From Nereocystis luetkeana (Eukaryota > Sar > Phaeophyceae > Laminariales > Laminariaceae), in NCBI GenBank assembly GCA_031213475.1, contig JARUPZ010000012.1, positions 5,025,530 to 5,089,529 of the forward strand: 64,000 bases of DNA. The letters are read 5' to 3'. Made by a program: the position numbers and the translations under genes. Numbering within the stretch: the stretch's first letter is position 1; every line of letters begins with the position of its first letter. The notes under the pieces were generated by a model. The model worked only from the letters and a program-made list of their open reading frames with translations. It made no database searches and had not been told where the DNA came from. Shown one piece after another: positions 70 through 62,631 of this stretch.

Positions 70-418
70 CACCGGAAATTAAATCAACTCATAGAAGCTA
101 TCATCCATATGCAAGTCCGCCTCACGTGCGATTCTTAGTATTACGGGGGGCCATAGTTAACAGGACCAAATATTTTTGGTAAAAATTGTTAAACAATAGG
201 TTTTTATGTATACCATAGGTCCTGTTAACTATGGCCCCCCGTAATAGTAGGATGCAGCTCACCCTTCATGCGACTCGCCAGACACCTCGCGGCGCTTGGC
301 GCTTGGTGCAAGCAATGTCTGCCCGGTCGGTGAAAACCCGACATGCTCTCCGTCCCGGCATTGTAGGGATGCGAGGGTCTATGGTCACACGACTACGACC
401 ATGCACGAGATCGAGTAC
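70..418 (+). repeat. C-tailed dispersed repeat, copy interrupted by a MITE
   Basis: The family consensus runs from a CATCCATRTGCAAGTCCGCC-like head through AGGATGCAGCTCACCC, GGTCGGTGAAAACCCGAC and GGCATTGTAGGGATGCGAGG to ATCGAGTAC, usually followed by poly(C). This copy is split by a hairpin MITE at 141-244. Its 3' end is partly duplicated at 419-490. Confidence 0.85.
141..244. mobile_element. 104-bp hairpin MITE (TTACGGGGG family) nested in a C-tailed repeat
   Basis: Terminal inverted repeats of 27 bp begin TTACGGGGGGCCATAGTTAA. It interrupts the repeat between TTAGTA and TAGTAGG; the duplicated site is TAGTA, or TA if the host differed. Other members are at 1136-1244, 55430-55530, 55520-55640 and 59790-59905. 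Confidence 0.85.
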
Positions 419-497
419 ATATATCCTATCATCGAGTCTATGGTCACACGACTACGACCAAGCACGAGATCGAGTACATATCTCCTATAATCGAATA

Positions 498-720
498 TCG
501 TCCATATGCAAGTCCGCCTCACAAGCGGTTCTTAGTAGGATGCAGCTCACCCTTCATGCGACTCGCCAGACACCTCACGGCGCTTCGCGCTTGGTGCAAG
601 CAATGTCTGCCTGGTCGGTAAAAACCCGACATGCTCCGTCCCGGCATTGTAGGGATGCGAAGGTCTATGGTCATACGACTACGGCCATGCATGATATCGA
701 GTACATATCTCCTATCGAGT

Positions 721-3408: not shown

Positions 3409-3484
3409 GTGCCAAAAATGCGCTGTTTTTTTCTTTCGTATGGCGGGCCGAGGATCAGAGAAAAAGGCTGAAGAGTGAAGCGGT

Positions 3485-9924: not shown

Positions 9925-10185
9925 CTATATGGAACAAAATACGCCTCAAAAGTGGCTCTTACTAATAGTAGGATGCAGCTCACCCTCCATACGAGTACGA
10001 CTCGCCGAACACCTCACGGCGCTTCGCGCTTGGTGCATGCAATATCTGCCAGGTCGGTGAAAGCCCGATGTGCTCCGTCCCGGCATTGTAGGGATGCGAG
10101 GGTCTATGGTCATACGACGACGGCCATGCACGAGATCGAGTACGCCCCCGAACCCGCTATCCCCCCCCTCGCCCCGTTTCGTCCC
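9925..10185 (+). repeat. C-tailed repeat downstream of TIM23
   Basis: Near full-length with a C-rich tail at 10143-10185 pointing towards the last TIM23 exon (its 3' end is at 10408). The sequence CTTACTAATAGTAGG, where other copies read CTTAGTAGG, could be an old MITE excision footprint. Confidence 0.8.
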
Positions 10186-13267: not shown

Positions 13268-13700
13268 GGGGAGAGGGGGGGATGGAGGAGGGGGGATGGA
13301 GGAGGGGGGGTGTACTCGATAGGAAAATATGTACTCGATTTCGTGCATGTCCGTAGTCATAGGACCATAGACCCTCGCATCCCTACAACGCCGGGACGGA
13401 GCATGTCGGGTTTTCACCGACCAGGCAGACATTGCTTGCGCCAAGCGCGAAACGCCGTGAGGTGTCTGGCGAGTCGCATGAAGGGTGAGCTGCGTCCTAC
13501 TGAGAGCCGCTTGTGAGGCGGACTTGCACATGGATGACAGCTTCAATAAAATAAGTTCATTTCCGGCGTAGCCACTTCCAGAGACAGCAATGGGAGTACT
13601 ATGTAACTTCCTCTTGGATGCCTTACCCTAACCCTATTGATACGACAATCCCCCTAATAATAGTGCGGAGTAAAGGTTGGTCACCTCGCACAGATGATCT
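13268..13700 (-). repeat. C-tailed repeat, long copy 5' of a TIM23 exon
   Basis: From a G-rich edge (13268-13308) and GTACTCGAT to a distal part ending near ATGATCTAACTCGAC (13693-13710). The same distal part is shared with the copy at 61240-61840. It includes a CCCTAACCCTA stretch that is not a telomere. Confidence 0.8.
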
Positions 13701-34036: not shown

Positions 34037-34624
34037 CCATCCCATTTATTATCTTCGCACATCTTCTTCTCTCTCTCCTTCCAACTCGTAACTCAGATCC
34101 GGGGTCACATAGCAGGCTCTTCTCCCCCCTTCCCGCTACGGTACGTGCCTTCATTTTTATCGCGAGAAGATTTCAGCCTTTTCTGGAAACAATCAGCTCG
34201 AGGTTTCAGGACGAGCAGGGGAGCGGTCGGTGAGGGGTGAGGGGGGTACGTAAGCAAGTTTGCATTACATATTATTTGCTCACCACAGCGTGTAATCCAG
34301 GTCCATCACCACCAAACGGGGGACTTCTCCACGCATTTCTCCACCCTGACCCTCTTCGACGCCATTTGCGGGGAAGGACCCAGCCCGACCTCTCTCGCCG
34401 GCGATGTCGAGGGTCTGCTGCTGCTGCTGCTGCCGCTGGTGCTGCTTGTTGTTCTTGTTCCCTTTTACTTGTTTGCGTTTCCCCATCTGCAACAAGATCG
34501 CCTCGCCGCGAACAGCGGTCGCATCTAAATTCCGATTGATCCCGTACCTTGCGGGAACAGCGAGGAATGCGCTGCTCTGTCCGACGAGAAGGGTGACGGC
34601 CAAAACCGCAACCCTGATTAGCAT
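31399..34624 (-). CDS. MDP1-like HAD-family phosphatase with plastid-type leader, 4 exons
   Basis: This is a HAD-superfamily phosphatase of the magnesium-dependent phosphatase 1 (MDP1) type. Family members dephosphorylate phosphotyrosine or sugar-related substrates; the substrate here is unknown. Exons on the minus strand are 34624-34284, 33192-33007, 32040-31818 and 31647-31399, all GT-AG with matching phases, giving 332 aa. Residues 1-20 form a signal peptide ending QSSA-F, with Phe at +1, resembling the heterokont ASAFAP plastid motif. A Gln-rich linker follows at about 60-70. HAD motifs are intact: DLDYTLW (Asp108, Asp110), SRT (Ser170-Thr172), Lys207 in GSKVRHF, and FFDDWDQN (Asp229, Asp230). 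The last exon reads FADILEGWGYRHR and then a long unconserved tail to the stop, so the true C-terminus may be shorter or spliced again. The start codon is only 78 bp from the MULE insertion, which may affect its promoter. Intron 1 holds a truncated SINE. Confidence 0.92.
33770..33855. repeat. AACCGCAGTCCCG hairpin MITE in MDP1 intron 1, diverged
   Basis: CACTGCAGTTCGGTTTGGGG and GAACACGAGGCTGCAGTGC arms. Confidence 0.7.
34007..34184 (-). mobile_element. tRNA-derived SINE, 5'-truncated, in MDP1 intron 1
   Basis: Only the 3' body is present, with an unusually long T run (about 30) on the plus strand, i.e. a poly(A) tail in gene sense. 5' truncation is typical of LINE-driven retroposition. Confidence 0.83.
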
Positions 34625-34693: not shown

Positions 34694-34702
34694 ATCATTC
34701 CG
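34694..34702 (+). repeat. 9-bp target-site duplication, left
   Basis: ATCATTCCG immediately precedes GGCGCGCGCTATGTG, the outer TIR of the left MULE arm. Confidence 0.93.
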
Positions 34703-34903
34703 GGCGCGCGCTATGTGCAGGCGCATCCTGCAAAAATATTTGTGCAGGCGCCGAACGCCTCGAGAACCAATCCACTATAAACCCATTTTTAAATACGAAA
34801 CACCGCACACAAAGAAGCCCTCAAAACAGCAGTTAGACCACAACAGTTCACAGCAGCAGTAGACCAGCACCAGGTCTCGACGTAAGGCACAAGGCACGCA
34901 CAG
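34703..34903 (+). repeat. MULE terminal inverted repeat, outer left
   Basis: About 200 bp, matched in inverted orientation at 48149-48349 (outer right) and, with substitutions, at both inner ends. It contains sub-terminal hairpins around GTGCAGGCGC and GCCGAACGCC. Confidence 0.9.
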
Positions 34904-35206
34904 CAGGAGATCCGCCGCAGATACTGGTTAGCGGGTACGGCGGTGCTGAGGTGCCTGGCGCTGATGATACAAACTCTGTTCCATATTTATTTATCTTGTG
35001 CGATTATGATAGGTTGCGAAGAGTACTCGTAGTGCTGCTGTACAGCAGCAGTAGTACTGCTGCTGTCGTAGTGCTGCACGCAAAACAAGTGGGCCATCCG
35101 TTGCGCGAGGCCATCCCGGGGCCATGATGCATTTCGGGCAGGCCGCCAAGCGACATACAAGGGCACAGCAAAAGAGCAAACATGTATATATACAGGTACA
35201 AGACGC

Positions 35207-35355
35207 CTAATAAGAAACAGGCTAATAAGAAAGCCAGGCTGAGATTTTGAGGAAAATGAGAAATTATGGAGTCGTCATCTTGAAATTATAGGGGGGCAAG
35301 CACCCTATCTCGAATAAGAAATCCAGCCTGGACCATAATTCCTGTTTCTTATTAT
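35207..35355 (+). repeat. MITE of the CTAATAAGAAACAG family (left arm, outer)
   Basis: About 150 bp with terminal inverted repeats CTAATAAGAAACAG and CTGTTTCTTATTA and an internal pair CCAGGCTG/CAGCCTGG. A diverged sister lies at 40612-40760, and mirror copies at 42282-42430 and 47697-47845. Confidence 0.8.
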
Positions 35356-38300
35356 TAATTAATAGGTGCCCTGTGCTACTTGTACCGAGGGTGGACCAAA
35401 ACAAAAGGTGAAAAACTTCTTTACTACTACAAGTTTGTCCTCAATGACATTGCTTTTTTTCGGGGGTTATTATGGTTTATGTGTACGAATCTACCAAGCA
35501 AAAAATAAGGCATCGACGATTGCCATGTTATCAAGCGACTAATGATAGGAAGAGCGTGCAGCAGTACGAGCGTACAGCAGTACGAGCGTACAGCAGACGC
35601 TCGTACGAGTATAATGTAATAATGCTGCACGCGGTCGCACAGCTCCTAGTATTGCAGTTCCGACACACCCCTTACCCCAACAGCCCGGACAGTTGGTCGA
35701 TGGTGCTGCAGTAATCAACGTTTTTCGACATTATTTCTTCACTCAGAAGTCCCCCCGGGGCTATTAACAGGGAATACTCTAAAAGCAAATGAAAATTAAC
35801 ATCCCAATATTTTATTTTGTGTTTCGTCCAGTTATCGATGACAACACTTTGTTTTCCATTCTGTCGTGTGTTGTTTCCTCTTCTTGTCGCGTGCCTTCGG
35901 GCATGGACTACAGTACTACCTCGTAAATATCAACTAAACACGAAACCGCCAAAGCAAGTACCAGGTACCGCACACCAAACGCGGTCACGATAAACCTTAC
36001 GACAAAATCGTAGGAATGCACTCATGATCATGTACTCGCCAGCATGAGAGGTCGTCGCATCCCTAGTCGTGCCCTTAGTAGTAAGGTGGGACAGAGTACA
36101 ACGGGTCTCCGGCCACACAAATAAATAAAATGGAGTACTGATACCGAAGGATCTCGCCGGCCGCAACAAAAACCGTAGTACTACAGTAATACTAGCAGGG
36201 GGGGTAGGAGACTACTAGTTGTACGATTGACTGGCCTTCCTGGTCCCGGCAGCTGAATACCGCGCCTCCACGCTCGACTCATGCCTTTTGCTGCCAAGTC
36301 TCTTCCCCGCGGGCAAACGTACAGTGTCCGGGTTGCCCACGACAACTCCCGTCCCCGACCCGATCCTTGCTGCCTGCTCTACTTGGGCCTCAAATGTCGC
36401 GAACATGTGACGCAGTGTTTCAGGGTCCACAGTGTCTACCCCCTTCGCCACGATTGCTGTGCTTTTCTTCAGGAGATCTACGTACAACTTGCGACGGTCT
36501 TGTACCGTAGGCCCGTGCTCCTTCATTCGCACTAGGGTAGAATTAATGGTCTCGCCACTACGCTCCTGTGCATCATACAGGTTTTCCCCGCCACTACGCT
36601 GGGATGCAGCGTTCTGGACTGCCTTAGTGTTGACTCTACGATCGTGCAAGGCTTCCAACACCTTGGCCTGGACGGCTGGTGCAAGTCCCGCATCTGCAAG
36701 AGGGGTGCAATACGAGAATGGTGGTGTTAAGCCGATGGTTGCTTACCACTTATTCGACAGATTTGATAGTTTGCTGCTAGTGGCCGACGCTCGATTCGCT
36801 GTCGCAGACGCTCGATTTCGTCGGCGTGGGATCACGGTGCCAGGTAGCATGGAATCAGGGGGCCAAATGGGAGAGGGGTGCAAACATGCGTGTTTCTGTG
36901 AAAGTGTGTGTGTTTTCGGACCAATGACACACCCCGAAACATCAGTAGTTGACCAATGGCAGGGAATTGTCGAATAACTCGTGATTTCTACTCGTTAGCT
37001 GACGGGATATAGAGCCTCACAACATGAATGATATCTACGAGAAAATACGTAGCTCTTTCTAGTCTACCGGCGTCAGCCGCACCATGAAACTAAGGGCCCA
37101 TCCAAACGAAGAAAAACGAAAGCTAAAAACAAAAGCTGAAGAGACAAACGAAATTTGCTCGTTTTGGGACACAAGAGAATGGAGTACAAACGCAGGACAC
37201 GCGTGAAAAACAAAAGCTAAAATAAAAAACGCAATAGAGACGACGGTCGTGGTGGAGCACCAGCACGGATTCACAATCCAGCTGCGGTAGAGGCGGCGCA
37301 CAGCCCTGAAAAAAATAGGGGAGTGTGCCCACACGGCTAGTCCACGATATATTACTATTTGCTGCTGCAAGGGCGCCGGCATCCTGAAGCGCGAAATCTG
37401 CGCTCGATAAAGTACGGGTGCTGTTCAAACAGCAGCATCACTTGCTAGAACATACGATTTTATTCAGAACAGCAATGACGGCACCAGGGGTATGTTACTT
37501 GTGTATTGTCTGCTCTCTGTCTTCTGGCTGTCTAGTCTAGTCTACGGGGCGTTCGTAGCTGTGGGTGTCGCTACGGCCTCGCTCCTCGCTGTTTGTTACG
37601 AGGTTATACCTGTTGAGCTACACAGTCACTGACTGAGTACCTCAACATGTATAACCTGTGACTGAGTAGTTCGTTTTAGCTTTTGCTTTCTAGATAAAAT
37701 TTTAATTCCAAAATTATTCATTTAATGGAGAAGCTACAATAAAATCCGCCGGTCTCTTGGGCCCTCATTTTTTTTAATTTGGCGAACCAGAACGAGTGCA
37801 TCTTCATATCTCATCGTCGCTTTTTTTTGTGTTTAGCTTTTTGTTTCTACATAGCTTTGATTTTTAGCCTCAAAATGCTCCGTTGGGACGAGCCCTAACA
37901 GCGTCGGCAAGGGCAAAGAAAAGCCAAATGCCAAGCCACTATCGTAAGCTTTGCTACAGCTTGACAAAACTCTCTACACGCCACCTGCCTGTGAGTTTCG
38001 CCGCCTCAGCCTTCATTGGCGATGACAGAGGCGCCCTCATCTGGTCCTGAACGTCCATCGCCGCTTTGTCTACCTCATGCCCGTGCTCCAGCACCATCGT
38101 CGTCAGTCGGGGGTGCTTGTTCACCAGGCATTTAAGAGGCCATCGTCCGGTTATCTGCAGGGGAAATCGGTGGCCATATTGATTTAATGGTGTCTACTAA
38201 TAATATATAGAATGCCGCGTCATCATCGTTTCGCCGGCAATTAATGCGCCTGCATCAATCCAACGTAACCCTCATGCAACCAAGGTGACGAGCAAAATGT

Positions 38301-40247
38301 AGTTCTCGCATGATTCATCAGCGTGTGCAAGCACAACTGATTGAGTTCCAACGCGATAAACCGGGTTTGTGTTTAGCAGCACCAGGTACATTCGTAGACT
38401 ACCAAGCAACAATTGAAAGCATCCCGGTCTTCAGCTAAGAACGAGACACGTGTACAATATGAACGTACTACTGTACATACGAAGCTGCACCCTACCTTAA
38501 AGCCGCAGCCAGTCCTCTGGCTCGAGGCTTGCCGTGGCACCCTGTGACAACCTGGTGCAGACGCAAGGCAGGGCATGTAAGCCGATAGATTATTCACCGC
38601 TGTTAGACGCCATGCCCATGATGCTCCCTACGGTAAACACGAGTGCCTAGGGCAAACACGACTGCCTAGGGCAAACACGACTGCCACTATTATACTACGA
38701 GCAAAAGCGAGTTTGTGATTAGCACCGCGCCAAATATGAAGGAGCCCTTTTGTCTCCCTTCGAGTACGAACGGTATCCGTACGAAGAACCTGGTACTGGT
38801 ATGATACAAGAAAACAGTCTATGGACCCTGGACATAAAAAAAAGAGGTCAAAACAGCACGGCCCCGGTCGGGGCTAGCATGCTAAAAGCTGGAAGCCGAT
38901 AAGTGTAGACAGCAGTACCAACACAAAATACGTAGCAACGCAAACAAGTTGACGACAGTTAATAAAGATCCTGCTGAGCAAGTTTCTAGCGACAGCATAT
39001 TCTACTGTATCTTTATTAGAAACCGCAGGTTCATATCCTACCCTTCTATCCAGTCCTTCTACTCATTCCTCATCGAAGACTCACCAGGGGCACTCCTCCT
39101 GCGTTCGGCCTGCAGGTCGGTCTGCCGGTTCCGCATGCCATGCACGCATTTCCATGCGACCATGACAAGGCGGCTTCCACTTCCTTTCTCCCTTCTTGAA
39201 GACTCACGTGCAAGCTTCACACCATGTTTCGCGCAAGTCTGCTTCACCACCGATTCCAGGTCCTCCAAGTTTGTTCCCTCCATACGAATGCTCCATACGA
39301 ATGTTGTTCAGCGCAACACGCAACGCTTCCGCGGAGTACGAGAACTGCGGACGCCGAACGCAAAGAGCGGTGATTATACAGCGTTGTGAATGGTGTCAAC
39401 GTTGGCAGGTGCGTGTTATCCACCACCACTACGAGTACTGCTGAAACAGAGGATGAAGCTGGTTTACCGTTGGCTACCTTGGACATTTTCACCGTTAAGT
39501 ATACGTATCATACTATCCATCATATGTACCATATTCAAGAGACAATCGTGTTGGCGGAGAAGGGCCGTAGAAAAGGAGGACAACACAATTGCACCTGCTG
39601 GGAATGTACTACTTTTTGTGTTGTATATCGTACACGGTCGAAAACAACGGTGTTTCTCTGTACCCATGCTGCTGCTACTATGATACAGTATGCTGCTGCA
39701 ATACTGCTGCTGTGCAATTTGTTAGGCTGGGGGAGGGGGGAACTGCTGCTGTTCAGCAAAAGCCCGTATTTACTACGTATGTCACCAGGATCAGCGTGCT
39801 TTTCTGCGCGCGGTTACAGCAAGAGTATACAATACTTCGTATGAGTGCTGCTCCCTGCTTGTGCCACCACCGCAGCCCGCCCCTCTATTTCCAAGTAATG
39901 CGTGATCTCGCCGCATCCGGCCCCCTGACCTTGCCCCCCCGCACCACGACGAGCGCGGGCCGGCGCGGCGCGAGACGGCCGGTTTCCCCTTGTCTGCACC
40001 CTTCCCCCCTACCCACGGCGAAATCCGCGGCCGAAATGCCCCAGGGTGGCGCGCCCGTTTGCGACATACAACACCAACAACAACACCAACAACCTGCAAC
40101 ATCGGCCTACAACCTACCAGGTACAACGTGGTACAACGTGGACCTATGGCCTACGGCTTACATTGTGTCTCACTATTACAGCTACTGTAGTACCCGTACA
40201 CAAGGGCACTGCTGTCAATATCGTATCATACGAAGAACAGTTTTACA

Positions 40248-40585
40248 CAGCTCGCGGCAGATCATCGACTCCCGTTGGATGGTCTAGATTTTTCAAGCCA
40301 GATGCATTTCCGATCTTATGCCATCTAGCTCACGTTGCCCGATCGGAGCGGTATAATCTGCATGATCTCCCAGAGGTCTGGGTTGGATCTGTACTACAGC
40401 AGCATGCAGATCCTGCACAACCTCTCGCAACCGCAGGTATGGAACTACTAGTTGTACTAATGGGTGATCTAGATCATTATATTATGTTATTAATAGTAGA
40501 TTATCTAGATCATCTACAGCAGTACCAGTAGATCATTATCAGATTATCCACAGCAGTAGTAGATCATGATCTGTCCGAGGTGTGC
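40248..40585 (-). repeat. GATC-dense MITE inside MULE, left arm
   Basis: Ends with GATCTGTCCGAGGTGTGC. The middle has GAGGTCTGGGTTGGATCTG. Mirror copy at 42457-42794. It lies in intron 1 of the FAR1-type gene. Confidence 0.8.
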
Positions 40586-40611
40586 AAGTATTATACAGTC
40601 AGTACAGGACA

Positions 40612-40760
40612 GCTAATAAGAAACAGGCTAATACGAAAGCCAGGCTGATATTTAAAGGAAAATATTAAATTCATGAGGCGTTATCTTGAAATTAGTCTAG
40701 AAAGCACCCTCTCTCAAATAAGAAATCCAGCCTGGACCATAGTTTCTGTTTCTTATTAGG
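40612..40760 (+). repeat. MITE of the CTAATAAGAAACAG family (left arm, inner)
   Basis: Same ends and internal inverted pair as 35207-35355, but clearly diverged in the middle, so the two were separate insertions into the MULE before it became a palindrome. Confidence 0.8.
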
Positions 40761-41464
40761 TGTCCGGTACTCTGTACCAACAACACTGTTCGCGTCACAA
40801 AACAAACTCCGACCAACTCACCGTATTTGTGTCGCTCTCGGCATCCACGTTCTGCGCCGGGTCACCGTCACTCCTCGGAGTCGCCGGCGCATCGCCGCCG
40901 TCTGTAGCGCCGCTGCCTGCAGCCGCTGCACTGCTGTCGACACCGATGCCACGCGCTCTCGGAGTCGGCGACGCAGGGTCTGCTCTTGCGCAAAAAAACG
41001 AAAAGGCACCCTCCTCGCTGGTGTCATCCACTTCGATTACCGGTACGCCCCCGTCACACGTCGGGCCACTCGCCCTCGCAGGAGTCGACGCCGCGCCGTC
41101 GTCGTCATCGCCTGCAGCTCCTGCAGCTCTCGCGCAGAAAAAGGAAAACGCACCGTCCTCGCTGGTAGCGTCCACTTCGATCATACCTCCTCCGTCACTA
41201 CCTGCGCTACCCGCGTCTTCCGCATCGTCGCCTGCGGAAGAGTTCCCTACTATATCGAACAGAGAGGTCATCGCAGTCACTGTGCGTGCCCTGTGCCTTA
41301 CGTCGAGACCTGGTGCTGGTCTACTGCTGCTGTGAATTGTTGTGAACTGCTGTTTTGAGGCCGGTGTTTCGTATTTGGAAATGGGTTTGTAGTGGATTGG
41401 TTCTCGAGGCGTTCGGCGCCTGCACAAATATTTTTGCAGGATGCGCCTGCACATAGCACGCGCC

Positions 41465-41473
41465 CGGAATGAT
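41465..41473 (-). repeat. Central 9-bp spacer, inverted copy of the target-site duplication
   Basis: CGGAATGAT is all that lies between the two MULE copies. It is the exact reverse complement of the outer duplication. Confidence 0.95.
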
Positions 41474-41606
41474 GGCGCGTGCTATGTGCAGGCGCATCCT
41501 GCAAAAATATTTGTGCAGGCGCCGAACGCCTCGAGAACCAATCCACTACAAACCCATTTCCCAATACGAAACACCGGCCTCAAAACAGCAGTTCACAACA
41601 ATTCAC

Positions 41607-41738
41607 AGCAGCAGTAGACCAGCACCAGGCACAGCAGCAGTAGACCAGCACCAGGCACAGCAGCAGTAGACCAGCACCAGGCACAGCAGCAGTAGACCAG
41701 CACCAGGCACAGCAGCAGTAGACCAGCACCAGGTCTCG
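41607..41738 (+). repeat. 26-bp minisatellite in inner TIR, 5 units
   Basis: The unit CAGTAGACCAGCACCAGG plus 8 bp recurs five times with a period of exactly 26 bp. The left arm has one unit at the matching place, so the four extra units (104 bp) explain most of the length difference between arms. Confidence 0.9.
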
Positions 41739-42281
41739 ACGTAAGGCACAGGGCACGCACAGTGACTGCGATGACCTCTCTGTTCGATATAGTAGGGAAC
41801 TCTTCCGCAGGCGACGATGCGGAAGACGCGGGTAGCGCAGGTAGTGACGGAGGAGGTATGATCGAAGTGGACGCTACCAGCGAGGACGGTGCGTTTTCCT
41901 TTTTCTGCGCGAGAGCTGCAGGAGCTGCAGGCGATGACGACGACGGCGCGGCGTCGACTCCTGCGAGGGCGAGTGGCCCGACGTGTGACGGGGGCGTACC
42001 GGTAATCGAAGTGGATGACACCAGCGAGGAGGGTGCCTTTTCGTTTTTTTGCTCAAGAGCAGACCCTGCGTCGCCGACTCCGAGAGCGCGTGGCATCGGT
42101 GTCGACAGCAGTGCAGCGGCTGCAGGCAGCGGCGCTACAGACGGCGGCGATGCGCCGGCGACTCCGAGGAGTGACGGTGACCCGGCGCAGAACGTGGATG
42201 CCGAGAGCGACACAAATACGGTGAGTTGGTCGGAGTTTGTTTTGTGACGCGAACAGTGTTGTTGGTACAGAGTACCGGACA

Positions 42282-42430
42282 CCTAATAAGAAACAGAAAC
42301 TATGGTCCAGGCTGGATTTCTTATTTGAGAGAGGGTGCTTTCTAGACTAATTTCAAGATAACGCCTCATGAATTTAATATTTTCCTTTAAATATCAGCCT
42401 GGTTTTCGTATTAGCCTGTTTCTTATTAGC
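42282..42430 (-). repeat. MITE of the CTAATAAGAAACAG family (right arm, inner)
   Basis: Mirror copy of 40612-40760. Confidence 0.8.
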
Positions 42431-42456
42431 TGTCCTGTACTGACTGTATAATACTT

Positions 42457-42794
42457 GCACACCTCGGACAGATCATGATCTACTACTGCTGTGGATAATC
42501 TGATAATGATCTACTGGTACTGCTGTAGATGATCTAGATAATCTACTATTAATAACATAATATAATGATCTAGATCACCCATTAGTACAACTAGTAGTTC
42601 CATACCTGCGGTTGCGAGAGGTTGTGCAGGATCTGCATGCTGCTGTAGTACAGATCCAACCCAGACCTCTGGGAGATCATGCAGATTATACCGCTCCGAT
42701 CGGGCAACGTGAGCTAGATGGCATAAGATCGGAAATGCATCTGGCTTGAAAAATCTAGACCATCCAACGGGAGTCGATGATCTGCCGCGAGCTG
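42457..42794 (+). repeat. GATC-dense MITE inside MULE, right arm
   Basis: Mirror of 40248-40585, starting GCACACCTCGGACAGATC. Confidence 0.8.
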
Positions 42795-45700
42795 TGTAAA
42801 ACTGTTCTTCGTATGATACGATATTGACAGCAGTGCCCTTGTGTACGGGTACTACAGTAGCTGTAATAGTGAGACACAATGTAAGCCGTAGGCCATAGGT
42901 CCACGTTGTACCACGTTGTACCTGGTAGGTTGTAGGCCGATGTTGCAGGTTGTTGGTGTTGTTGTTGGTGTTGTATGTCGCAAACGGGCGCGCCACCCTG
43001 GGGCATTTCGGCCGCGGATTTCGCCGTGGGTAGGGGGGAAGGGTGCAGACAAGGGGAAACCGGCCGTCTCGCGCCGCGCCGGCCCGCGCTCGTCGTGGTG
43101 CGGGGGGGCAAGGTCAGGGGGCCGGATGCGGCGAGATCACGCATTACTTGGAAATAGAGGGGCGGGCTGCGGTGGTGGCACAAGCAGGGAGCAGCACTCA
43201 TACGAAGTATTGTATACTCTTGCTGTAACCGCGCGCAGAAAAGCACGCTGATCCTGGTGACATACGTAGTAAATACGGGCTTTTGCTGAACAGCAGCAGT
43301 TCCCCCCTCCCCCAGCCTAACAAATTGCACAGCAGCAGTATTGCAGCAGCATACTGTATCATAGTAGCAGCAGCATGGGTACAGAGAAACACCGTTGTTT
43401 TCGACCGTGTACGATATACAACACAAAAAGTAGTACATTCCCAGCAGGTGCAATTGTGTTGTCCTCCTTTTCTACGGCCCTTCTCCGCCAACACGATTGT
43501 CTGTTGAATATGGTACATATGATGGATAGTATGATACGTATACTTAACGGTGAAAATGTCCAAGGTAGCCAACGGTAAACCAGCTTCATCCTCTGTTTCA
43601 GCAGTACTCGTAGTGGTGGTGGATAACACGCACCTGCCAACGTTGACACCATTCATAACGCTGTATAATCACCGCTCTTTGCGTTCGGCGTCCGCAGTTC
43701 TCGTACTCCGCGGAAGCGTTGCGTGTTGCGCTGAACAACATTCGTATGGAGCATTCGTATGGAGGGAACAAACTTGGAGGACCTGGAATCGGTGGTGAAG
43801 CAGACTTGCGCGAAACATGGTGTGAAGCTTGCACGTGAGTCTTCAAGAAGGGAGAAAGGAAGTGGAAGCCGCCTTGTCATGGTCGCATGGAAATGCGTGC
43901 ATGGCATGCGGAACCGGCAGACCGACCTGCAGGCCGAACGCAGGAGGAGTGCCCCTGGTGAGTCTTCGATGAGGAATGAGTAGAAGGACTGGATAGAAGG
44001 GTAGGATATGAACCTGCGGTTTCTAATAAAGATACAGTAGAATATGCTGTCGCTAGAAACTTGCTCAGCAGGATCTTTATTAACTGTCGTCAACTTGTTT
44101 GCGTTGCTACGTATTTTGTGTTGGTACTGCTGTCTACACTTATCGGCTTCCAGCTTCTAGCATGCTAGCCCCGACCGGGGCCGTGCTGTTTTGACCTCTT
44201 TTTTTTATGTCCAGGGTCCATAGACTGTTTTCTTGTATCATACCAGTACCAGGTTCTTCGTACGGTTACCGTTCGTACTCGAAGGGAGACAAAAGGGCTC
44301 CTTCATATTTGGCGCGGTGCTAATCACAAACTCGCTTTTGCTCGTAGTATAATAGTGGCAGTCGTGTTTGCCCTAGGCAGTCGTGTTTGCCCTAGGCACT
44401 CGTGTTTACCGTAGGGAGCATCATGGGCATGGCGTCTAACAGCGGTGAATAATCTATCGGCTTACATGCCCTGCCTTGCGTCTGCACCAGGTTGTCACAG
44501 GGTGCCACGGCAAGCCTCGAGCCAGAGGACTGGCTGCGGCTTTAAGGTAGGGTGCAGCTTCGTATGTACAGTAGTACGTTCATATTGTACACGTGTCTCG
44601 TTCTTAGCTGAAGACCGGGATACTTTCAATTGTTGCTTGGTAGTCTACGAATGTACCTGGTGCTGCTAAACACAAACCCGGTTTATCGCGTTGGAACTCA
44701 ATCAGTTGTGCTTGCACACGCTGATGAATCATGCGAGAACTACATTTTGCTCGTCACCTTGGTTGCATGAGGGTTACGTTGGATTGATGCAGGCGCATTA
44801 ATTGCCGGCGAAACGATGATGACGCGGCATTCTATATATTATTAGTAGACACCATTAAATCAATATGGCCACCGATTTCCCCTGCAGATAACCGGACGAT
44901 GGCCTCTTAAATGCCTGGTGAACAAGCACCCCCGACTGACGACGATGGTGCTGGAGCACGGGCATGAGGTAGACAAAGCGGCGATGGACGTTCAGGACCA
45001 GATGAGGGCGCCTCTGTCATCGCCAATGAAGGCTGAGGCGGCGAAACTCACAGGCAGGTGGCGTGTAGAGAGTTTTGTCAAGCTGTAGCAAAGCTTACGA
45101 TAGTGGCTTGGCATTTGGCTTTTCTTTGCCCTTGCCGACGCTGTTAGGGCTCGTCCCAACGGAGCATTTTGAGGCTAAAAATCAAAGCTATGTAGAAACA
45201 AAAAGCTAAACACAAAAAAAAGCGACGATGAGATATGAAGATGCACTCGTTCTGGTTCGCCAAATTAAAAAAAATGAGGGCCCAAGAGACCGGCGGATTT
45301 TATTGTAGCTTCTCCATTAAATTAATAATTTTGGAATTAAAATTTTATCTAGAAAGCAAAAGCTAAAACGAACTACTCAGTCACAGGTTATACATGTTGA
45401 GGTACTCAGTCAGTGACTGTGTAGCTCAACAGGTATAACCTCGTAACAAACAGCGAGGAGCGAGGCCGTAGCGACACCCACAGCTACGAACGCCCCGTAG
45501 ACTAGACTAGACAGCCAGAAGACAGAGAGCAGACAATACACAAGTAACATACCCCTGGTGCCGTCATTGCTGTTCTGAATAAAATCGTATGTTCTAGCAA
45601 GTGATGCTGCTGTTTGAACAGCACCCGTACTTTATCGAGCGCAGATCTCGCGCTTCAGGATGCCGGCGCCCTTGCAGCAGCAAATAGTAATATATCGTGG

Positions 45701-47696
45701 ACTAGCCGTGTGGGCACACTCCCCTATTTTTTTCAGGGCTGTGCGCCGCCTCTACCGCAGCTGGATTGTGAATCCGTGCTGGTGCTCCACCACGACCGTC
45801 GTCTCTATTGCGTTTTTTATTTTAGCTTTTGTTTTTCACGCGTGTCCTGCGTTTGTACTCCATTCTCTTGTGTCCCAAAACGAGCAAATTTCGTTTGTCT
45901 CTTCAGCTTTTGTTTTTAGCTTTCGTTTTTCTTCGTTTGGATGGGCCCTTAGTTTCATGGTGCGGCTGACGCCGGTAGACTAGAAAGAGCTACGTATTTT
46001 CTCGTAGATATCATTCATGTTGTGAGGCTCTATATCCCGTCAGCTAACGAGTAGAAATCACGAGTTATTCGACAATTCCCTGCCATTGGTCAACTACTGA
46101 TGTTTCGGGGTGTGTCATTGGTCCGAAAACACACACACTTTCACAGAAACACGCATGTTTGCACCCCTCTCCCGTTTGGCCCCCTGATTCCATGCTACCT
46201 GGCACCGTGATCCCACGCCGACGAAATCGAGCGTCTGCGACAGCGAATCGAGCGTCGGCCACTAGCAGCAAACAACCAAATCTGTCGAATAAGTGGTAAG
46301 CAACCATCGGCTTAACACCACCATTCTCGTATTGCACCCCTCTTGCAGATGCGGGACTTGCACCAGCCGTCCAGGCCAAGGTGTTGGAAGCCTTGCACGA
46401 TCGTAGAGTCAACACTAAGGCAGTCCAGAACGCTGCATCCCAGCGTAGTGGCGGGGAAAACCTGTATGATGCACAGGAGCGTAGTGGCGAAACCATTAAT
46501 TCTACCCTAGTGCGAATGAAGGAGCACGGGCCTACGGTACAAGACCGTCGCAAGTTGTACGTAGATCTCCTGAAGAAAAGCACAGCAATCGTGGCGAAGG
46601 GGGTAGACACTGTGGACCGTGAAACACTGCGTCACATGTTCGCGACATTTGAGGCCCAAGTAGAGCAGGCAGCAAGGATCGGGTCGGGGACGGGAGTTGT
46701 CGTGGGCAACCCGGACACTGTACGTTTGCCCGCGGGGAAGAGACTTGGCAGCAAAAGGCGTAAGTCGGGCGTGGAGGCGCGGTATTCAGCTGCCGGGACC
46801 AGGAAGGCCAGTCAATCGTACAACTAGTAGTCTCCTACCCCCCCTGCTAGTATTACTGTAGTACTACGGTTTTTGTTGCGGCCGGCGAGATCCTTCGGTA
46901 TCAGTACTCCATTTTATTTATTTGTGTGGCCGGAGACCCGTTGTACTCTGTCCCACCTTACTACTAAGGGCACGACTAGGGATGCGACGACCTCTCATGC
47001 TGGCGAGTACATGATCATGAGTGCATTCCTACGATTTTGTCGTAAGGTTTATCGTGACCGCGTTTGGTGTGCGGTACCTGGTACCAGGTACTTGCTTTGG
47101 CGGTTTCGTGTTTAGTTGATATTTACGAGGTAGTACTGTAGTCCATGCCCGAAGGCACGCGACAAGAAGAGGAAACAACACACGACAGAATGGAAAACAA
47201 AGTGTTGTCATCGATAACTGGACGAAACACAAAATAAAATATTGGGATGTTAATTTTCATTTGCTTTTAGAGTATTCCCTGTTAATAGCCCCGGGGGGAC
47301 TTCTGAGTGAAGAAATAATGTCGAAAAACGTTGATTATTGCAGCAGCATCGACCAACTGTCCGGGCTGTTGGGGTAAGGGGTGTGTCGGAACTGCAATAC
47401 TAGGAGCTGTGCGACCGCGTGCAGATTTATTATTACATTATACTAGTACGAGCGTCTGCTGTACGCTCGTACTGCTGTACGCTCGTACTGCTGCACGCTC
47501 TTCCTATCATTAGTCGCTTGATAACATGGCAATCGTCGATGCCTTATTTTTTGCTTGGTAGATTCGTACACATAAACCATAATAACCCCCGAAAAAAAGC
47601 AATGTCATTGAGGACAAACTTGTAGTAGTAAAAAAGTTTTTCACCTTTTGTTTTGGTCCACCCTCGGTACAAGTAGCACAGGGCACCTATTAATTA

Positions 47697-47845
47697 ATAA
47701 TAAGAAACAGGAATTATGGTCCAGGCTGGATTTCTTATTCGAGATAGGGTGCTTGCCCCCCTATAATTTCAAGATGACGACTCCATAATTTCTCATTTTC
47801 CTCAAAATCTCAGCCTGGCTTTCTTATTAGCCTGTTTCTTATTAG
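47697..47845 (-). repeat. MITE of the CTAATAAGAAACAG family (right arm, outer)
   Basis: Mirror copy of 35207-35355. Confidence 0.8.
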
Positions 47846-48148
47846 GCGTCTTGTACCTGTATATATACATGTTTGCTCTTTTGCTGTGCCCTTGTATGTC
47901 GCTTGGCGGCCTGCCCGAAATGCATCATGGCCCCGGGATGGCCTCGCACAACGGATGGCCCACTTGTTTTGCGTGCAGCACTACGACAGCAGCAGTACTA
48001 CTGCTGCTGTACAGCAGCACTACGAGTACTCTTCGCAACCTATCATAATCGCACAAGATAAATAAATATGGAACAGAGTTTGTATCATCAGCGCCAGGCA
48101 CCTCAGCACCGCCGTACCCGCTAACCAGTATCTGCGGCGGATCTCCTG

Positions 48149-48349
48149 CTGTGCGTGCCTTGTGCCTTACGTCGAGACCTGGTGCTGGTCTACTGCTGCT
48201 GTGAACTGTTGTGGTCTAACTGCTGTTTTGAGGGCTTCTTTGTGTGCGGTGTTTCGTATTTAAAAATGGGTTTATAGTGGATTGGTTCTCGAGGCGTTCG
48301 GCGCCTGCACAAATATTTTTGCAGGATGCGCCTGCACATAGCGCGCGCC
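48149..48349 (-). repeat. MULE terminal inverted repeat, outer right
   Basis: Inverse match of 34703-34903, running from CTGTGCGTGCC to ATAGCGCGCGCC. Confidence 0.9.
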
Positions 48350-48358
48350 ATCATTCCG
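48350..48358 (+). repeat. 9-bp target-site duplication, right
   Basis: ATCATTCCG immediately follows ATAGCGCGCGCC, the outer TIR of the right MULE arm, in the same orientation as the left copy. Confidence 0.93.
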
Positions 48359-48998
48359 TGGAGTTCCATACACAACAGGGGGCGTTACGATACTTGTCTC
48401 TTCCCCTGTCTCTTTCCTTGCGACGCCGATCGAAGCCAGACACTTCATTTTGCTGTCAACTCCGCTGGAAGGCACCGTATCGAGGTGAGAGCTGTCTCTC
48501 ATTGTGTGATGATTCCTACAGTGCGTGTACCGCTGGTCAGCACGGGTTTGCAACCCGGGAGCGGTTCTTTGCGAGCCTAATTCCTGCTACAGAAGTCGCG
48601 AGATCACTTCCTTCTGCCTCCCCTCGTTCTCCCGGTATCCCGGAGTTGAATTACCCCCCGCTTATTATGCCCATTGCAGCTAGAGGGAAAGACGGTGCCA
48701 AACCGAGATCCCGACACGCTGCATGCTGATTCCGTTTGCACGGAGTTTGACGGGCATGAGCGCGATGCATTGCTTCCTGTTTCAGCGCACAGCACGAGCA
48801 CGGTCGTTGTTTCTACTCGCACTGAGCTGTACTTTTTCCAAGTTTAGAGTTTTTCCCCTGACCACGAGTACAGCACTACCAGGTATGTGTACCTGGTACA
48901 CGGCAGCAGAAGTTCGATGTCGTTTGACCACCCCTGTCTCTTTCTCCCTCCCCTGTTCAGGCTCTGAGAGGTGCTCGTACCTCTGAAGGACAGGCAGT
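48359..48998. promoter_or_regulatory. RPN3 upstream region
   Basis: About 640 bp of single-copy-looking sequence between the MULE and the RPN3 ATG, probably promoter and 5' UTR. It contains two close TACCWGGTA words near 48888-48906. No gene is seen in it; short open frames on both strands look random. Confidence 0.5.
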
Positions 48999-51900: not shown

Positions 51901-54900
51901 CGCTCACTACGTGAGCTGGACAACAAGGGTGCCGTTTGTTTGTTTTTGTCTCCTTGGCGGTAGGTCACAGCTGGCGATCGAGTTATAGATAATTTAATCT
52001 GAGGTGGAGAACATTGACTCCGCACGAAGGGAATAATCGCATCATGTATTCATAGTGTTTATGATAGACCTCCGCGATGCAGTTACATAGTACCCCGATT
52101 GCTGTCTCTGGAAGTGGCGACACGAGGAATTAAATTATCTCATTGAAGCTGCCATCCATGTGCAAGGCCGCCCCGCAAGTGGTTCTTAGTACACAGGATG
52201 CAGCTCACCCTTCATGCGACTCGCCGAACTCCTCACGGCGGTTCGCGCTTGGCGCAAGCAATGTCTACCTGGTCGGTGAAAATCCGACGTGCTCCGTCCC
52301 GGCATTGTCGGGATGCGAAGGTCTATGGTCGTACGATTTCCTTGTTGCTCTAATACCCTTACTCCGATTTGCGCCGCCTCCTTCCATATTTCAACATTTT
52401 GGACCCCCCCCTTTTGGTGCAAGCAATGCCTACCCGGTCGGTGAAAACCCGACGTGCTCCGTCCCGACATCGTCGGGATGCGAGGGTCTACGGCCATATG
52501 ACTACGGCCATGCATGATATCGAGTACCCCCCCCCCCCCCTCCGTAGTGTGTATATGGTGAGACCCACGAGGCAGTTACATAGTATCCCCATTGCTGTCT
52601 CTGGAAGTGTCCACACCAGAAATTGAATCAATGAATTGATGATGTCATCCAAATGCGAGAAAATCCGCCTCTAAATCGGTTCTTAGTAGGATGCAGCTCA
52701 CCCTTCATGCGACTCGCCCAACACCTCACAGCGCTTCGCGCTGGGTGCAAGCAATGTCTGCCTGGTCGGTGAAAACCCGACGTGCCCCGTCCCGGGATTG
52801 TAGGGATGCAAGGGTCTATGATCATACGACTACGGCCATGCACGACAATGAGTACCCCCCCACCCCCCCCCGACTTGTTCACGCGCGACGATGGTCTCGG
52901 CGGAGCGTAGGAACACCCCCATCCGACGCAGGGTGCAGGCGGACGTGCTGCGCGAAGCTTTGGAGAAGCTGCTGCCGGAAGACTGCCCGAACAAGGCGGA
53001 GCTGCTGCTGCTGCTGGCTAAGCTTCCCAGCGAAGGTACGTCGGAGAGGGGAGGCTGTAGAGCGTTTGACTGACTGTCTGGAGGATGGGCGAGGGGGGGG
53101 GGGTACTACATAGTGTCATGCATGGCCTTACTGTAGTCTTATGCCCACAGACCCTCGCATCCTTATGTACGACGCCGGGACGGACCGGGTCGGGTTTTCA
53201 CCGACCAGGCAGGCACGATGTGCACCGAGCGGGGGGGGGGGGGGGGGGGGGGGGTACTCGATATCATGCATGGGAGGAGTCTAAAGACATACACGTGCCT
53301 CGCTGGTTTGTGGGTGGATGGGTGGGTGGGTGCGCCGCGTATTCAAACGCCTCGAGCGCTCGTCGTCAAGCCACCGTTGAAAGTGGAAGAACGAACCTCA
53401 ATCGTCGGTCGGTGATGCGGAACCCCGCGAGCGAGAAAAACAAGAGGGGGGCGGTTTCGTACACTGTTTAGGAGCTGGACTTCTGCTCGCTCTACGTACA
53501 CGGACGGTTTCGCTTTGCGTCACCGGCTATTGTTCCCGTTATCTTGTCCACACTGTCCATTTGTCCTTGAACTTGTGAACAGAGAGTGAAACCGCTCGGT
53601 GCTTTGTTTCGCCGACATATCACACATCGCTTCAAACCACCGCTCCCCCGGCGCCCGCCCCCGCCCCCCTGACCCCCATCCCCGCCCCCTCTCCCGCCTT
53701 CACCCCCACGTTTGCCCCCACCCCCACTCCTGCCCCCGCCCCGGCCCCGCCTCCCGACCAACAGCCGTAGAAAAACCAGCGACAGACTCGATGGAGGTCG
53801 ATTCCTCCTCCGTGGATGCTGGGAAAGATGCTGCCGCCGTTGCGGCCAAGGCGGCTACAGCGGCGGCTGCGGCGGCTGCGGCTACCGCGGCGGCGGTGGC
53901 GGCGGTGGCGGAAGCCGCCCTGCCCGAGGTGGAGGTGTACTTGTCGACCCTGGCGCTGACGACGCTGCTGAGGCACAAGGCCGATGGGGATGCGGTCGAC
54001 GTGGCGCCCAGGTTGATGGAACGCACCGTCAGCTTCAATAGGAGGTGGGTGGTGGGTGGTGGGTGGCGGGGGAGGAGGAGAAGGAGGAGAAAGAGGAGGG
54101 AGGTGGGAGGGGGGGACGAACTGGTGGTGGTTTATTTGTTGTCTTTCTTGTGACGGAAGGGGGGGCCGCATCGGTGTCATCTGGTATTTTCACCGTGGCA
54201 TATCCTATCGAAGCTGACAGTGCGTTTGAGCAGCCTAGGTGAGCTAGTGGTGGGTGGCGGGGGAGATGGAGGAGGAGAAGGAGGAGGGGGGGAGGGGTTT
54301 GTAGTGTTTCTTTTTGCTCCTGATTGCGACGCGGGGGCTGAGGCTGAGGACGGCAATTGGTTGTGCCACGGGGGTGCATCGATATCATGTGATATTTTTT
54401 ATCGTATCATGTCGGATCGGGTAGGATCGGATCGAATCGGATCATTTTTTTATCACCACATCATACGTAGCATAGCATATCACATCATATCATATGATAT
54501 CATACCTGGTGCCTGGTACGATGCATCGCATATATCATGTCGTGTCATTATCTTATCCTATTTTTCCATCTCTTCCAATATCATATCCTATCATTCCATC
54601 TCATCTCATCTCATATCATATCATATCAAACCATCTCATATCGCAACATATAACGCTGTATCTTGTACCAGATATACGATATCACATGATATCATATCAC
54701 ACCTTACCTGGTATATACAACCATAGCACACCACACGCGCCATATCGTCGCATCGCATCCCATCGCATCCCATGCCACATCATGTCACACTGCGCGTTGT
54801 TTCTTCTCTTGCTTTGTTTTGCCGGGGGGGGGGGGGGGGTCTCTCGTCTCCTCTCTCCTCCTTGCACGTGCGCTATGTACTGCTAAATCCGTCACAGGAC

Positions 54901-60900: not shown

Positions 60901-62631
60901 GATATGTATATATGTCTGATACAGTATATCTTCCTGTCAATATCTAGATCATTTAAAAGTAGGAATCGATTATCTACGTTTAATCTCGAGCTGTGAATTT
61001 GCCTTTTATCAAATGTTCTCGGGGTTTTTTTTTTCCCCCTCCGAACGAAGGTGAAGCTTGAGTCTGTGCAGAGCGCGGAGTTCGTGTGCTCGAAGGCCAT
61101 CCGGGATGGCGTCATCGATGCCGTCATCGACCACGACAAGGGATGGATGCAGAGCCAGGAGGTCGTCGACGTATACGCGACTGACGAGCCTCAACAGGTG
61201 GGTGGGTGCGTGGGTGGGGCGGTGGAGCGGTGAGGGAGTGTGTGTGTGTGGGGGGTATTTGCTATCATGCATGGCCGTAGTCGTATGACCATCACGGACC
61301 TTTGCATCCGTACAATGCCCGGACGGAGCACGTCGGGTTTTCACCGACCAGGTAGACATTGCTTGCACCAAGAGCGAAGCGCCATGAGGTGCCCGGCGCG
61401 TCGCATAGAGGGTGAGCTGCGTCCCACTAAGAACCGCTTGCGCGGCGGATTTGCATGTGGATGACAGCTTCAATGAAGTATGTTTAATTTCCAATGTGGC
61501 CCTTTCCAGAGGCAGCTATGGGAGTACTCAGTAACTGCCTCTTGGGTGCCTTACCTTGAACACTACGTGATACGACCATTCCCCTTGTGCGGAGTAAAGG
61601 TGCTCCACCCCGCCCAAATGATCTAACTCGACCACCAGCTAGCTGTGACTGACCGCCGAAAAAAAAACAAAAACAAGAAACAAATAACAAATAACGGTAC
61701 CCCGGTTGTCTACGACAGTAGCTCAAGTAGCGAGCGGCATGGTTTGCAGTGTCGTTGCCAACCAACGTCAACCCAACGTGGGGTTTGGTGGGTCCATACC
61801 ACCTTGGACGGGAATATAAAGCCTCCTTCGTGTTCGTTTTGACGGTCTGAACGGTCTTTATATTTTCGTCCAGAGTGCTAGGTGGGTAGGTGATAGATAG
61901 GTAGGTAAGTAGGTAGGTAGGCAGGTAGGTAGGCAGGTGGGTAGGTGGGGAGGTAGGTAGGTAGGTAGGTAGGTGGGTTGGCAGGTAGTTAGGTAGGTAG
62001 GTAGGTAGGTAGGTGGATAGGTAGGTAGGTAGGTAGGTAGGTAGGTGGATAGGTAGGTAGGTAGGTAGGTAGGTAGGTGGATAGGTAGGTAGGTAGGTAG
62101 GTAGGTAGGTAGGTGGATAGGTAGGTAGGTAGGTAGGTGGATAGGTAGGTAGGTAGGTAGGTAGGTAGGTGGGTAGGTGGGTAGGTGGGTAGGTGGGTAG
62201 GTGGGTAGGTGGGTAGGTGGGTAGGTGGGTGGTGGGTCGGTGAGTGGGTGGACTGGTGAGTTATTCAGGTTCTAGTGCCTGCAACCGATATCATATTTTT
62301 TTATTGCTACGAATTGTCGTCACTCTTATACAACGAAAGATCATTTATTTTTTTACCTGGTTGTACCTTGTGCACTTGTGTGTGTGTGTGTGTGTGTTTT
62401 TTTTTTTTTTTTCGTGCCGCGTTTTTTGTTTTTGTTCTTGTTTTGTGTCAGGCGTTCCACAAGCGCATCACGTTCTGTCTCGACGTGCACAACGAGGCGG
62501 TGAGGGCGATGCGCTACCCCCCCAACGCCTATAAGAAGGAGCTGGAGTCGGCCCGATCAGGGCTAGATGACAAGACGGAAGAGGAGCTGGCCAAAGAAAT
62601 CGAGGACGAGATGGACGAGGACGGCCTTTGA
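48999..62631 (+). CDS. RPN3: 26S proteasome regulatory subunit Rpn3 (PSMD3), 10 exons
   Basis: This encodes the PCI-domain lid subunit Rpn3 of the 19S regulatory particle, which scaffolds degradation of ubiquitinated proteins. Exons I assign are 48999-49192, 52911-53035, 53765-54044, 54898-55017, 56343-56486, 56854-56995, 57785-57919, 58332-58463, 61051-61197 and 62452-62631. All introns are GT-AG and every phase matches, giving 1599 nt (532 aa plus stop), close to the 534 aa of human PSMD3. Recognisable blocks include an N-terminal [74 protein letters not shown] and [13 protein letters not shown]. The PCI region falls at about residues 285-465, and the C-terminus is acidic as in the family. 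The exon 2 acceptor was chosen because only GCGTAG|GAAC keeps the frame; its polypyrimidine tract is weak. Intron 1 (3.7 kb) and intron 8 (2.6 kb) are filled with repeats. The gene starts 641 bp from the MULE palindrome. Confidence 0.97.
49830..50390 (+). repeat. Tandem repeats of about 100 bp in RPN3 intron 1
   Basis: Units carry CAGTAGGTKGTCGTYGAACC and CCACCCACCCACCC. About five degenerate units. Confidence 0.75.
50695..50937. repeat. 240-bp MITE with 38-bp terminal inverted repeats, RPN3 intron 1
   Basis: TACCGTATCACACTGGGTGA and its inverse TCACCCTAGTGTGATACGG mark the ends; flanking TA suggests the target. The interior is unrelated to the other families. Confidence 0.8.
52070..52345 (+). 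repeat. C-tailed repeat in RPN3 intron 1 (copy 1, tail lost)
   Basis: GCAGTTACATAGTACC head through GGCATTGTCGGGATGCGAAGG, truncated before the tail. Confidence 0.8.
52410..52540 (+). repeat. C-tailed repeat in RPN3 intron 1 (copy 2, head lost)
   Basis: GGTGCAAGCAATGCCTACC to ATATCGAGTAC, followed by poly(C). Confidence 0.8.
52560..52872 (+). repeat. C-tailed repeat in RPN3 intron 1 (copy 3, abuts exon 2)
   Basis: Near full-length. Its C-rich tail (52852-52872) ends 39 nt before exon 2 and may act as that acceptor's pyrimidine tract. Confidence 0.85.
53088..53280 (-). repeat. C-tailed repeat fragments after RPN3 exon 2
   Basis: Two minus-orientation fragments, each starting with a G run and GTACT (53088-53105 and 53231-53260). 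The first begins about 55 nt after the exon 2 donor. Confidence 0.78.
54375..54790 (+). repeat. (ATCAT)n-type low-complexity block, RPN3 intron 3
   Basis: Imperfect ATCATATC/CATCTC runs, with GGATCGGATCG near the start. Confidence 0.85.
55425..55640. repeat. Two adjacent TTACGGGGG hairpin MITEs in RPN3 intron 4
   Basis: Two members in tandem sharing GTTACGGGGGGCATAG, TATTACGGGGGACCATAA and GTTAACTATGGTCC ends, with the usual ATAAAAACCTATA-like middle. Confidence 0.8.
56050..56335 (+). repeat. (GGAACCGAAC)n array before RPN3 exon 5
   Basis: Dense imperfect repeats of GGAACCGAAC/GGAACAACAC up to the exon 5 acceptor region. Confidence 0.9.
56675..56785 (+). repeat. (TCGGTTCCTTTC)n array after RPN3 exon 5
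   Basis: About eight 12-bp units. Its core TCGGTTCC is the reverse complement of GGAACCGA in the array on the other side of exon 5. Confidence 0.9.
57335..57560 (+). repeat. (GGT)n array, RPN3 intron 6
   Basis: About 220 bp, mostly perfect GGT. Poly-Val and poly-Trp open frames here are artefacts. Confidence 0.93.
58886..58980. repeat. AACCGCAGTCCCG hairpin MITE in RPN3 intron 8
   Basis: TTAACCCTTTTAGTACCGCG and CGGGACTGCAGTCCTAAC arms. Confidence 0.8.
59265..59440 (+). repeat. (CCAAA/CCAAG)n array, RPN3 intron 8
   Basis: Imperfect AACCAAACC runs. Related sequence resumes right after the exon 9 fragment at 59613. Confidence 0.85.
59569..59613 (+). pseudogene. Partial duplicate of RPN3 exon 9 inside intron 8
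   Basis: 45 nt match the first 45 nt of exon 9 (61051-61095) after an AG in AACAAAG|GTG. Eight bases differ, but the encoded peptides are almost the same: [15 protein letters not shown] against [15 protein letters not shown]. Similarity stops abruptly in CCAAA-type simple repeat. No usable donor follows in frame, so it is probably not spliced in. Confidence 0.8.
59745..59912. repeat. TTACGGGGG hairpin MITE plus fragment, RPN3 intron 8
   Basis: A fragment TTACGGGGGACCATAGG at 59749 is followed by a full member ending TATGGCCCCCCGTGATAGG. Confidence 0.78.
60665..60960 (+). repeat. GATC-dense MITE in RPN3 intron 8
   Basis: CGCACAGATCATCTACAGAG at the left, GGTCCAACCTAGGACATTTG and CCCACCCGGCGACATGAGC in the middle. 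Confidence 0.77.
61245..61840 (-). repeat. C-tailed repeat, longest copy, after RPN3 exon 9
   Basis: Begins with GGGGGGTATTTGCTATCATG about 50 nt after the exon 9 donor. It runs through the usual core into a distal half shared with 13560-13700 and in part with 51820-52010. Confidence 0.8.
61880..62245 (+). repeat. (GGTA)n array, about 365 bp, RPN3 intron 9
   Basis: GTAGGTAGGTAGG with GTGGATAG interruptions at regular distances, which suggests higher-order duplication. Confidence 0.93.

Follow-up and report, generated by a model that had tools for sequence, protein, structure and literature searches.

A palindrome of two probably MULE-like elements in Nereocystis luetkeana: probable reuse of an occupied, motif-marked target site followed by inversion of a 9-nt hairpin loop

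In a window of 64,000 nucleotides of Nereocystis luetkeana DNA (i.e. the whole stretch that was analysed), two full-length transposable elements were found tail to tail, with the reverse complement of their flanking 9-mer as the only DNA between them. This arrangement raises the question of how two elements came to occupy a single target and how the 9-mer that separates them came to be inverted. The left element measures 6,762 bp and the right, inverted element 6,876 bp, the entire palindrome spanning 13.65 kb around an asymmetric centre of 9 bp; 'tail' is used here, purely as a naming convention, for the element end that faces this centre. Coordinates and repeat comparison confirmed the anatomy given in a preliminary description of the locus, with ATCATTCCG present on both outer sides in direct orientation and, as assembled, CGGAATGAT alone between the elements (Table 1). 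The latter 9-mer was observed at one other site in the window (20585), and the probability that a random 9-mer matches the flanking one in either orientation is 2/4^9, or 7.6e-6. The terminal inverted repeats of ~116 bp display 91–92% identity, or 92–93% over 125–126 bp when the flanking 9-mers are included. Searches of the window with ARAGORN and with Rfam at gathering thresholds returned no match. A scattered repeat family with units of ~100–200 bp in both orientations was also observed in the window (245-708, 9949-10143, 13327-13643, 52046-52855 and 61226-61489).

Table 1. Features of the palindrome and its immediate flank (window coordinates)
Feature	Position	Strand	Remarks
Left outer target duplication	34694..34702	+	9 bp, ATCATTCCG
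Left arm	34703..41464	+	Full-length element, head outwards (left), tail to centre; 13 private substitutions
Head terminal inverted repeat, left arm	34703..34818	+	First bases GGCGCGCGC
Element position 304, left arm	35006..35006	+	A; base private to the two arms
Gene remnant, last ORF	36218..36742	-	P0028 residues 279-324, followed immediately by the C-terminal part known from P0012
Gene remnant, block 3	37990..38190	-	P0028 residues 212-280
Gene remnant, block 2	39098..39359	-	P0028 residues 127-209
Gene remnant, block 1, left arm	40869..41271	-	MTSLFDIVG...; P0028 residues 1-130, two frames
Tail terminal inverted repeat, left arm	41349..41464	+	Last bases GCACGCGCC
Central spacer	41465..41473	-	CGGAATGAT, inverted target 9-mer; 9-nt loop, stem 156 bp, 99% complementary
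Right arm	41474..48349	-	Full-length element, inverse orientation, head outwards (right); clade of C22 and C32
26-bp tandem repeat, right arm	41604..41733	+	5 copies; left arm 104 bp (4 units) shorter
Element position 304, right arm	48046..48046	-	A on the minus strand
Right outer target duplication	48350..48358	+	9 bp, ATCATTCCG
Target motif	48359..48367	+	TGGAGTTCC, adjoining the right duplication; family motif nGGn(G/T)TTC

The elements had been labelled MULEs, an assignment for which the 9-bp target duplications (8–11 bp in MULEs), the ~116-bp terminal inverted repeats (~100 bp or more in MULEs) and a related gene remnant speak, although no catalytic domain was observed. Read from tail to head, the remnant consists of four blocks matching the gene model P0028, which from its label 'Undpi' we take to be from Undaria, followed by the C-terminal part of other relatives; among the relatives, one that is named comes from Ascophyllum. 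In the relatives the two parts are separated by a stretch with a SWIM-like finger, which the element lacks. SWIM fingers and 9-bp duplications are marks of MULEs. All ten relatives scanned gave a SWIM match at E <= 1 (P0016 above the Pfam cut-off and P0021 at it); in the Pfam scan of P0006 no SWIM match was obtained. A Pfam scan of the 12 ORFs of the element revealed neither a transposase match nor a catalytic core. Judging from these comparisons, the elements are probably MULE-like, and, since the SWIM stretch is missing and no catalytic domain was found, they are taken to be non-autonomous. In common with non-autonomous MULEs, the family exhibits 9-bp duplications, long inverted ends and internal-deletion derivatives; it differs from them in that no catalytic core was found in the element and in that two targets were used twice (see below).

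The neighbouring gene starts on the minus strand at 34280-34624 of the window and displays a weak Acid_PPase match (E 0.023). The palindrome is located ~70 bp upstream of its ATG (34624, minus strand), and insertion at this distance before a probable start codon is a further likeness to MULEs. The N-terminus of the encoded protein resembles a plastid-targeting leader. Together with the homologues of the gene remnant, this protein points to a brown-algal host.

The preliminary description had proposed searching the genome for solo and other paired copies, and this search yielded both. A head probe produced 43 matches in the 465-Mb assembly, 28 of which were heads, at no fewer than 26 loci: the palindrome with its two arms, a further pair with two heads (C32) and 24 single copies. 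These copy numbers are lower bounds, because 19 of the 59 first-look candidates in this search and 16 of the 56 in another received no score. A perfect 9-bp duplication in register was present at 20 of the 24 single copies; those of C9a and C38 match after shifts of 5 and 1 bp, respectively, while C23 matches at 8/9 and C1b at 7/9 positions. At C9a and C38 (L053, L048), 5 and 1 additional bases are present between tail and duplication. Divergence among the seven full copies, arms included, ranges from 0.03 to 0.55%, and this low value points to a young element family. One copy spans 13.5 kb (C24:1427264-1440795; L031, L005), including several kb, near element position 3430, that do not match the arms. 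Copies with internal deletions that retain both ends were found at C22:1161151-1164850 (L007, L037; 3.7 kb) and C1:5121917 (L034; ~1.06 kb).

The two arms differ by 24 substitutions and three indels (3, 7 and 104 bp), the longest of which corresponds to four units of the 26-bp tandem repeat. Eight other copies share the alleles of the right arm at element positions 905 and 922-925, and a 7-bp insertion and four substitutions are common to the right arm and C22 alone, some of these letters also being shown by the badly aligned rows L022 and L026. The left arm exhibits the majority state at these lineage markers. Divergence of the right arm amounts to 0.348% from the left arm, 0.227% from C32 and 0.334% from C2b (23, 15 and 22 differences, respectively, among the full copies). 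The nearest of the six other full copies to the left arm is the right arm, with 23 differences, followed by C32 with 24 and C2b with 25. In a maximum-likelihood tree of 26 rows, 16 of which have under half of their columns filled, the right arm groups with C22 (99/95) within a nine-copy clade (95/92), and the left arm falls outside it. A clade of left and right arm was rejected by the AU test (p 0.009). On this sequence evidence the arms are separately descended copies rather than sisters, so that two copies of different descent came into one target.

The near-identity of the arms had been read as a sign of recent origin or continuing gene conversion. This reading was not supported, as solo copies are about as alike: across the first 1,859 element positions, 265 of 325 copy pairs are closer than the two arms (the 1.06-kb deletion copy, C1b, was omitted from these pairs and from the tree). 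Since the likeness is family-wide, it provides no date for the palindrome.

Alignment of 25 reconstructed empty sites revealed a motif, nGGn(G/T)TTC, which directly follows the 9-bp duplication on one side only and which is new relative to the preliminary description. These sites comprise the 24 single copies and the window, each in its best-fitting orientation, with C9a and C38 set into register by hand and C32 omitted as too eroded. The log-likelihood of the motif was 171 for the 25 sites, compared with a mean of 74 (SD 5.7, maximum 90) for 100 shuffles; 40 EM restarts for the real sites and five per shuffle somewhat favour the former. Directly after the duplication,.GG.[GT]TT, an expression picked after the sites had been seen, was present at 17 of 25 sites versus 0.65% of random positions, and.GG at 22 of 25 versus 14%; the three sites lacking even.GG in register are C1a, C21a and C1b. 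Relative to the element, the motif is located on one side in ten cases and on the other in ten, on both sides in two and on neither in three. At the palindrome it still stands as a flank, after the right outer duplication.

As a first insertion leaves one of the resulting duplications adjoining the motif, these 9 bp remain open to a second cut, and reuse of the target is probably due to the target itself. A motif of ~6 bits and 27 insertions would yield ~2e-5 coincident pairs, and two of the 26 loci are double. The motif alone therefore does not explain the reuse, which leaves either a small number of usable targets or attraction by resident ends. It is conceivable, and offered tentatively, that resident ends together with the flanking motif constitute a privileged landing site to which the transposition machinery is drawn, such that copies accumulate within a single 9-bp target and form long inverted pairs.

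The second doubly used target, C32:1514087-1521550, consists of a full element that has lost its first 9 bases, CTTGAAGGAG, GGCGC and an inverted head fragment (positions 619-5), and is a decayed tail-to-tail pair, most of whose second member has been deleted. Erosion has affected the outer ends and the motif of this locus, and its outer duplication is unreadable. The 10-bp spacer CTTGAAGGAG is in direct orientation, which is the orientation that double insertion predicts before any flip; an inverted spacer is thus found in one of the two pairs only. The site is located within a repeat with 12 genome matches, 11 of them at >= 98%, of which C32, C23 and seven further copies were read and two good C24 matches were left out. 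Six of the seven are empty and read TTGAAGGAG there; the seventh carries TTGATTGAAGGAG, a 4-bp scar (C23:9233886; L057) that looks like an excision footprint. C23 is the paralogous site of C32 (right flank 97% identical over 1.5 kb, left flank 98.7% over 75 bp) and harbours a single element, with TTGAAGGAG on its left and an altered duplication with ~4 extra bases on its right. This right duplication, TTGAAGGCGGGAG (C23:9334666; L006, L056), could be the repair scar of another lost insertion. One target is hence represented in empty, scarred, singly and doubly occupied states. In C23 and the empty copies, the motif occupies the side on which C32 carries its added element. If the C32 remnant corresponds to the C23 insertion, the added C32 element would, like the right arm, belong to the nine-copy clade, with C23, like the left arm, outside it. 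A search of the genome with the right flank of the window for an empty paralogue returned the window site itself only.

With arms of different lineages in the window and stepwise occupation at a second locus, the earlier proposal that a second copy had entered the same 9-bp target was upheld. We consider it likely that this copy reused an occupied, motif-marked target and that a 9-nt hairpin loop subsequently flipped. The left copy would have inserted first, into ATCATTCCG followed by TGGAGTTCC, i.e. beside the one-sided motif, which would have remained next to one duplication and kept the site recognisable. A second copy, from the other lineage, would then have entered the same 9 bp in opposite orientation, generating the order T-L-T-R'-T beside the motif. 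The middle 9-mer would thereby have become the loop of a very long hairpin and may have been inverted, most simply by strand switching or exchange in the part of the stem that adjoins the loop and otherwise by crossover between the arms. Afterwards, the arms would have exchanged at least one short stretch.

Private substitutions, counted only where at least four other copies were comparable, number 3 of 6,876 in the right arm, all in the part that is absent from C22, and 13 of 6,632 in the left arm (p 0.021), where some may predate insertion. A newcomer adjoining the motif would be expected to carry fewer such changes, as the right arm does, and this hints that the right arm is the younger of the two.

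When folded, the spacer forms a clean 9-nt loop above a stem that is perfect for at least 46 bp, and inversion of this loop would be the simplest cause of its orientation. As such an inversion suffices, the flip can be explained without any crossover between the arms. At element position 304, both arms carry A, while all 25 other copies carry G, and C22, the nearest kin of the right arm, lacks the A; this single shared private base suggests a short exchange from arm to arm.

The preliminary description had attributed the flipped spacer to recombination between the inverted copies, i.e. to a homologous crossover between the 6.8-kb arms after the same double insertion. Long inverted repeats recombine, and the A at position 304, common to both arms and present in none of the 25 other copies, suggests exchange as such; no trace of a crossover itself is visible. 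The right arm carries alleles otherwise seen only in C22 close to its head (1,255-1,859) as well as towards its tail (6674G), so that no chimera is visible with the arm markers between ~905 and 6674, unless C22 is itself a daughter of the right arm, as it may be; markers in the tail are poor. Had a crossover fallen within the outer 905 bp, entire arms would have changed places, and the left arm, with its larger number of private substitutions, would have been the newcomer. Inversion by crossover therefore appears unlikely. An incorrect join during assembly of a pair with another order or orientation is a still weaker candidate, and we regard it as quite improbable: the arms exceed many reads in length and assembly easily loses the orientation of a 9-bp centre, but 24 bases and three indels distinguish the arms, and their flanks are different, the right one occurring once in the assembly. 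Furthermore, identical arms and mirrored flanks would be expected from a molecular palindrome artefact. The risk of artefact thus falls mainly on the orientation of the spacer.

Both remaining origins that had been put forward are disfavoured. Aberrant or replication-linked transposition would deliver two full elements and direct outer duplications as an inverted dimer in one event, yet it predicts sister arms, which the lineage markers and the AU test contradict, and C23 and C32 show a target being occupied stepwise; such an event is highly improbable. Movement of the entire palindrome as a macro-element would account for outer ends that are intact heads with a direct 9-bp duplication. However, a spacer brought from a donor site would match the new target by pure chance only (7.6e-6), which renders this origin extremely improbable. 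Reuse of the occupied target followed by loop inversion is accordingly retained as the preferred reading.

Several known systems resemble parts of this arrangement. The target choice observed here is marked and one-sided, unlike that of maize Mu, for which a weak, symmetric consensus is reported (PMC2774946), and that of mosquito Muta1, for which little or no consensus is reported (PMC5225508). MULEs with multiple TIRs likewise contain additional sets of MULE ends at a single location; their internal TIRs are reported to be without a recognisable duplication and the authors conclude against nested insertion, while allowing that such insertion might have been followed by loss of the duplication (PMC3310237). 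Unlike in those elements, as they are described there, the centre of the present palindrome is the exact target 9-mer. Small inversions in plastid DNA, where short hairpin loops are reported in both orientations among relatives (PMC6824564, PMC2903610), are similar in having a short loop between inverted repeats. Their stems, of 9 and 18 bp in these accounts, compare with 156 bp within 6.8-kb arms here, and, in contrast to the plastid cases so described, the present sequence is taken as nuclear and its loop is a target duplication. Among the literature titles and abstract openings surveyed, none evidently described an inverted spacer together with insertion of a second copy into the same duplication.

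Target choice by eukaryotic cut-and-paste elements and the origin of long palindromes are both hard to observe. Here, one young family combines a marked one-sided motif with double use of two targets in 26 loci, and the natural series formed by empty, scarred, single and double states at one target makes target reuse directly testable. Reuse of an occupied target would explain simply how a long palindrome can arise with no large duplication event. If resident ends do attract further copies, this family would keep building hairpin palindromes with 9-bp centres that flip back and forth.
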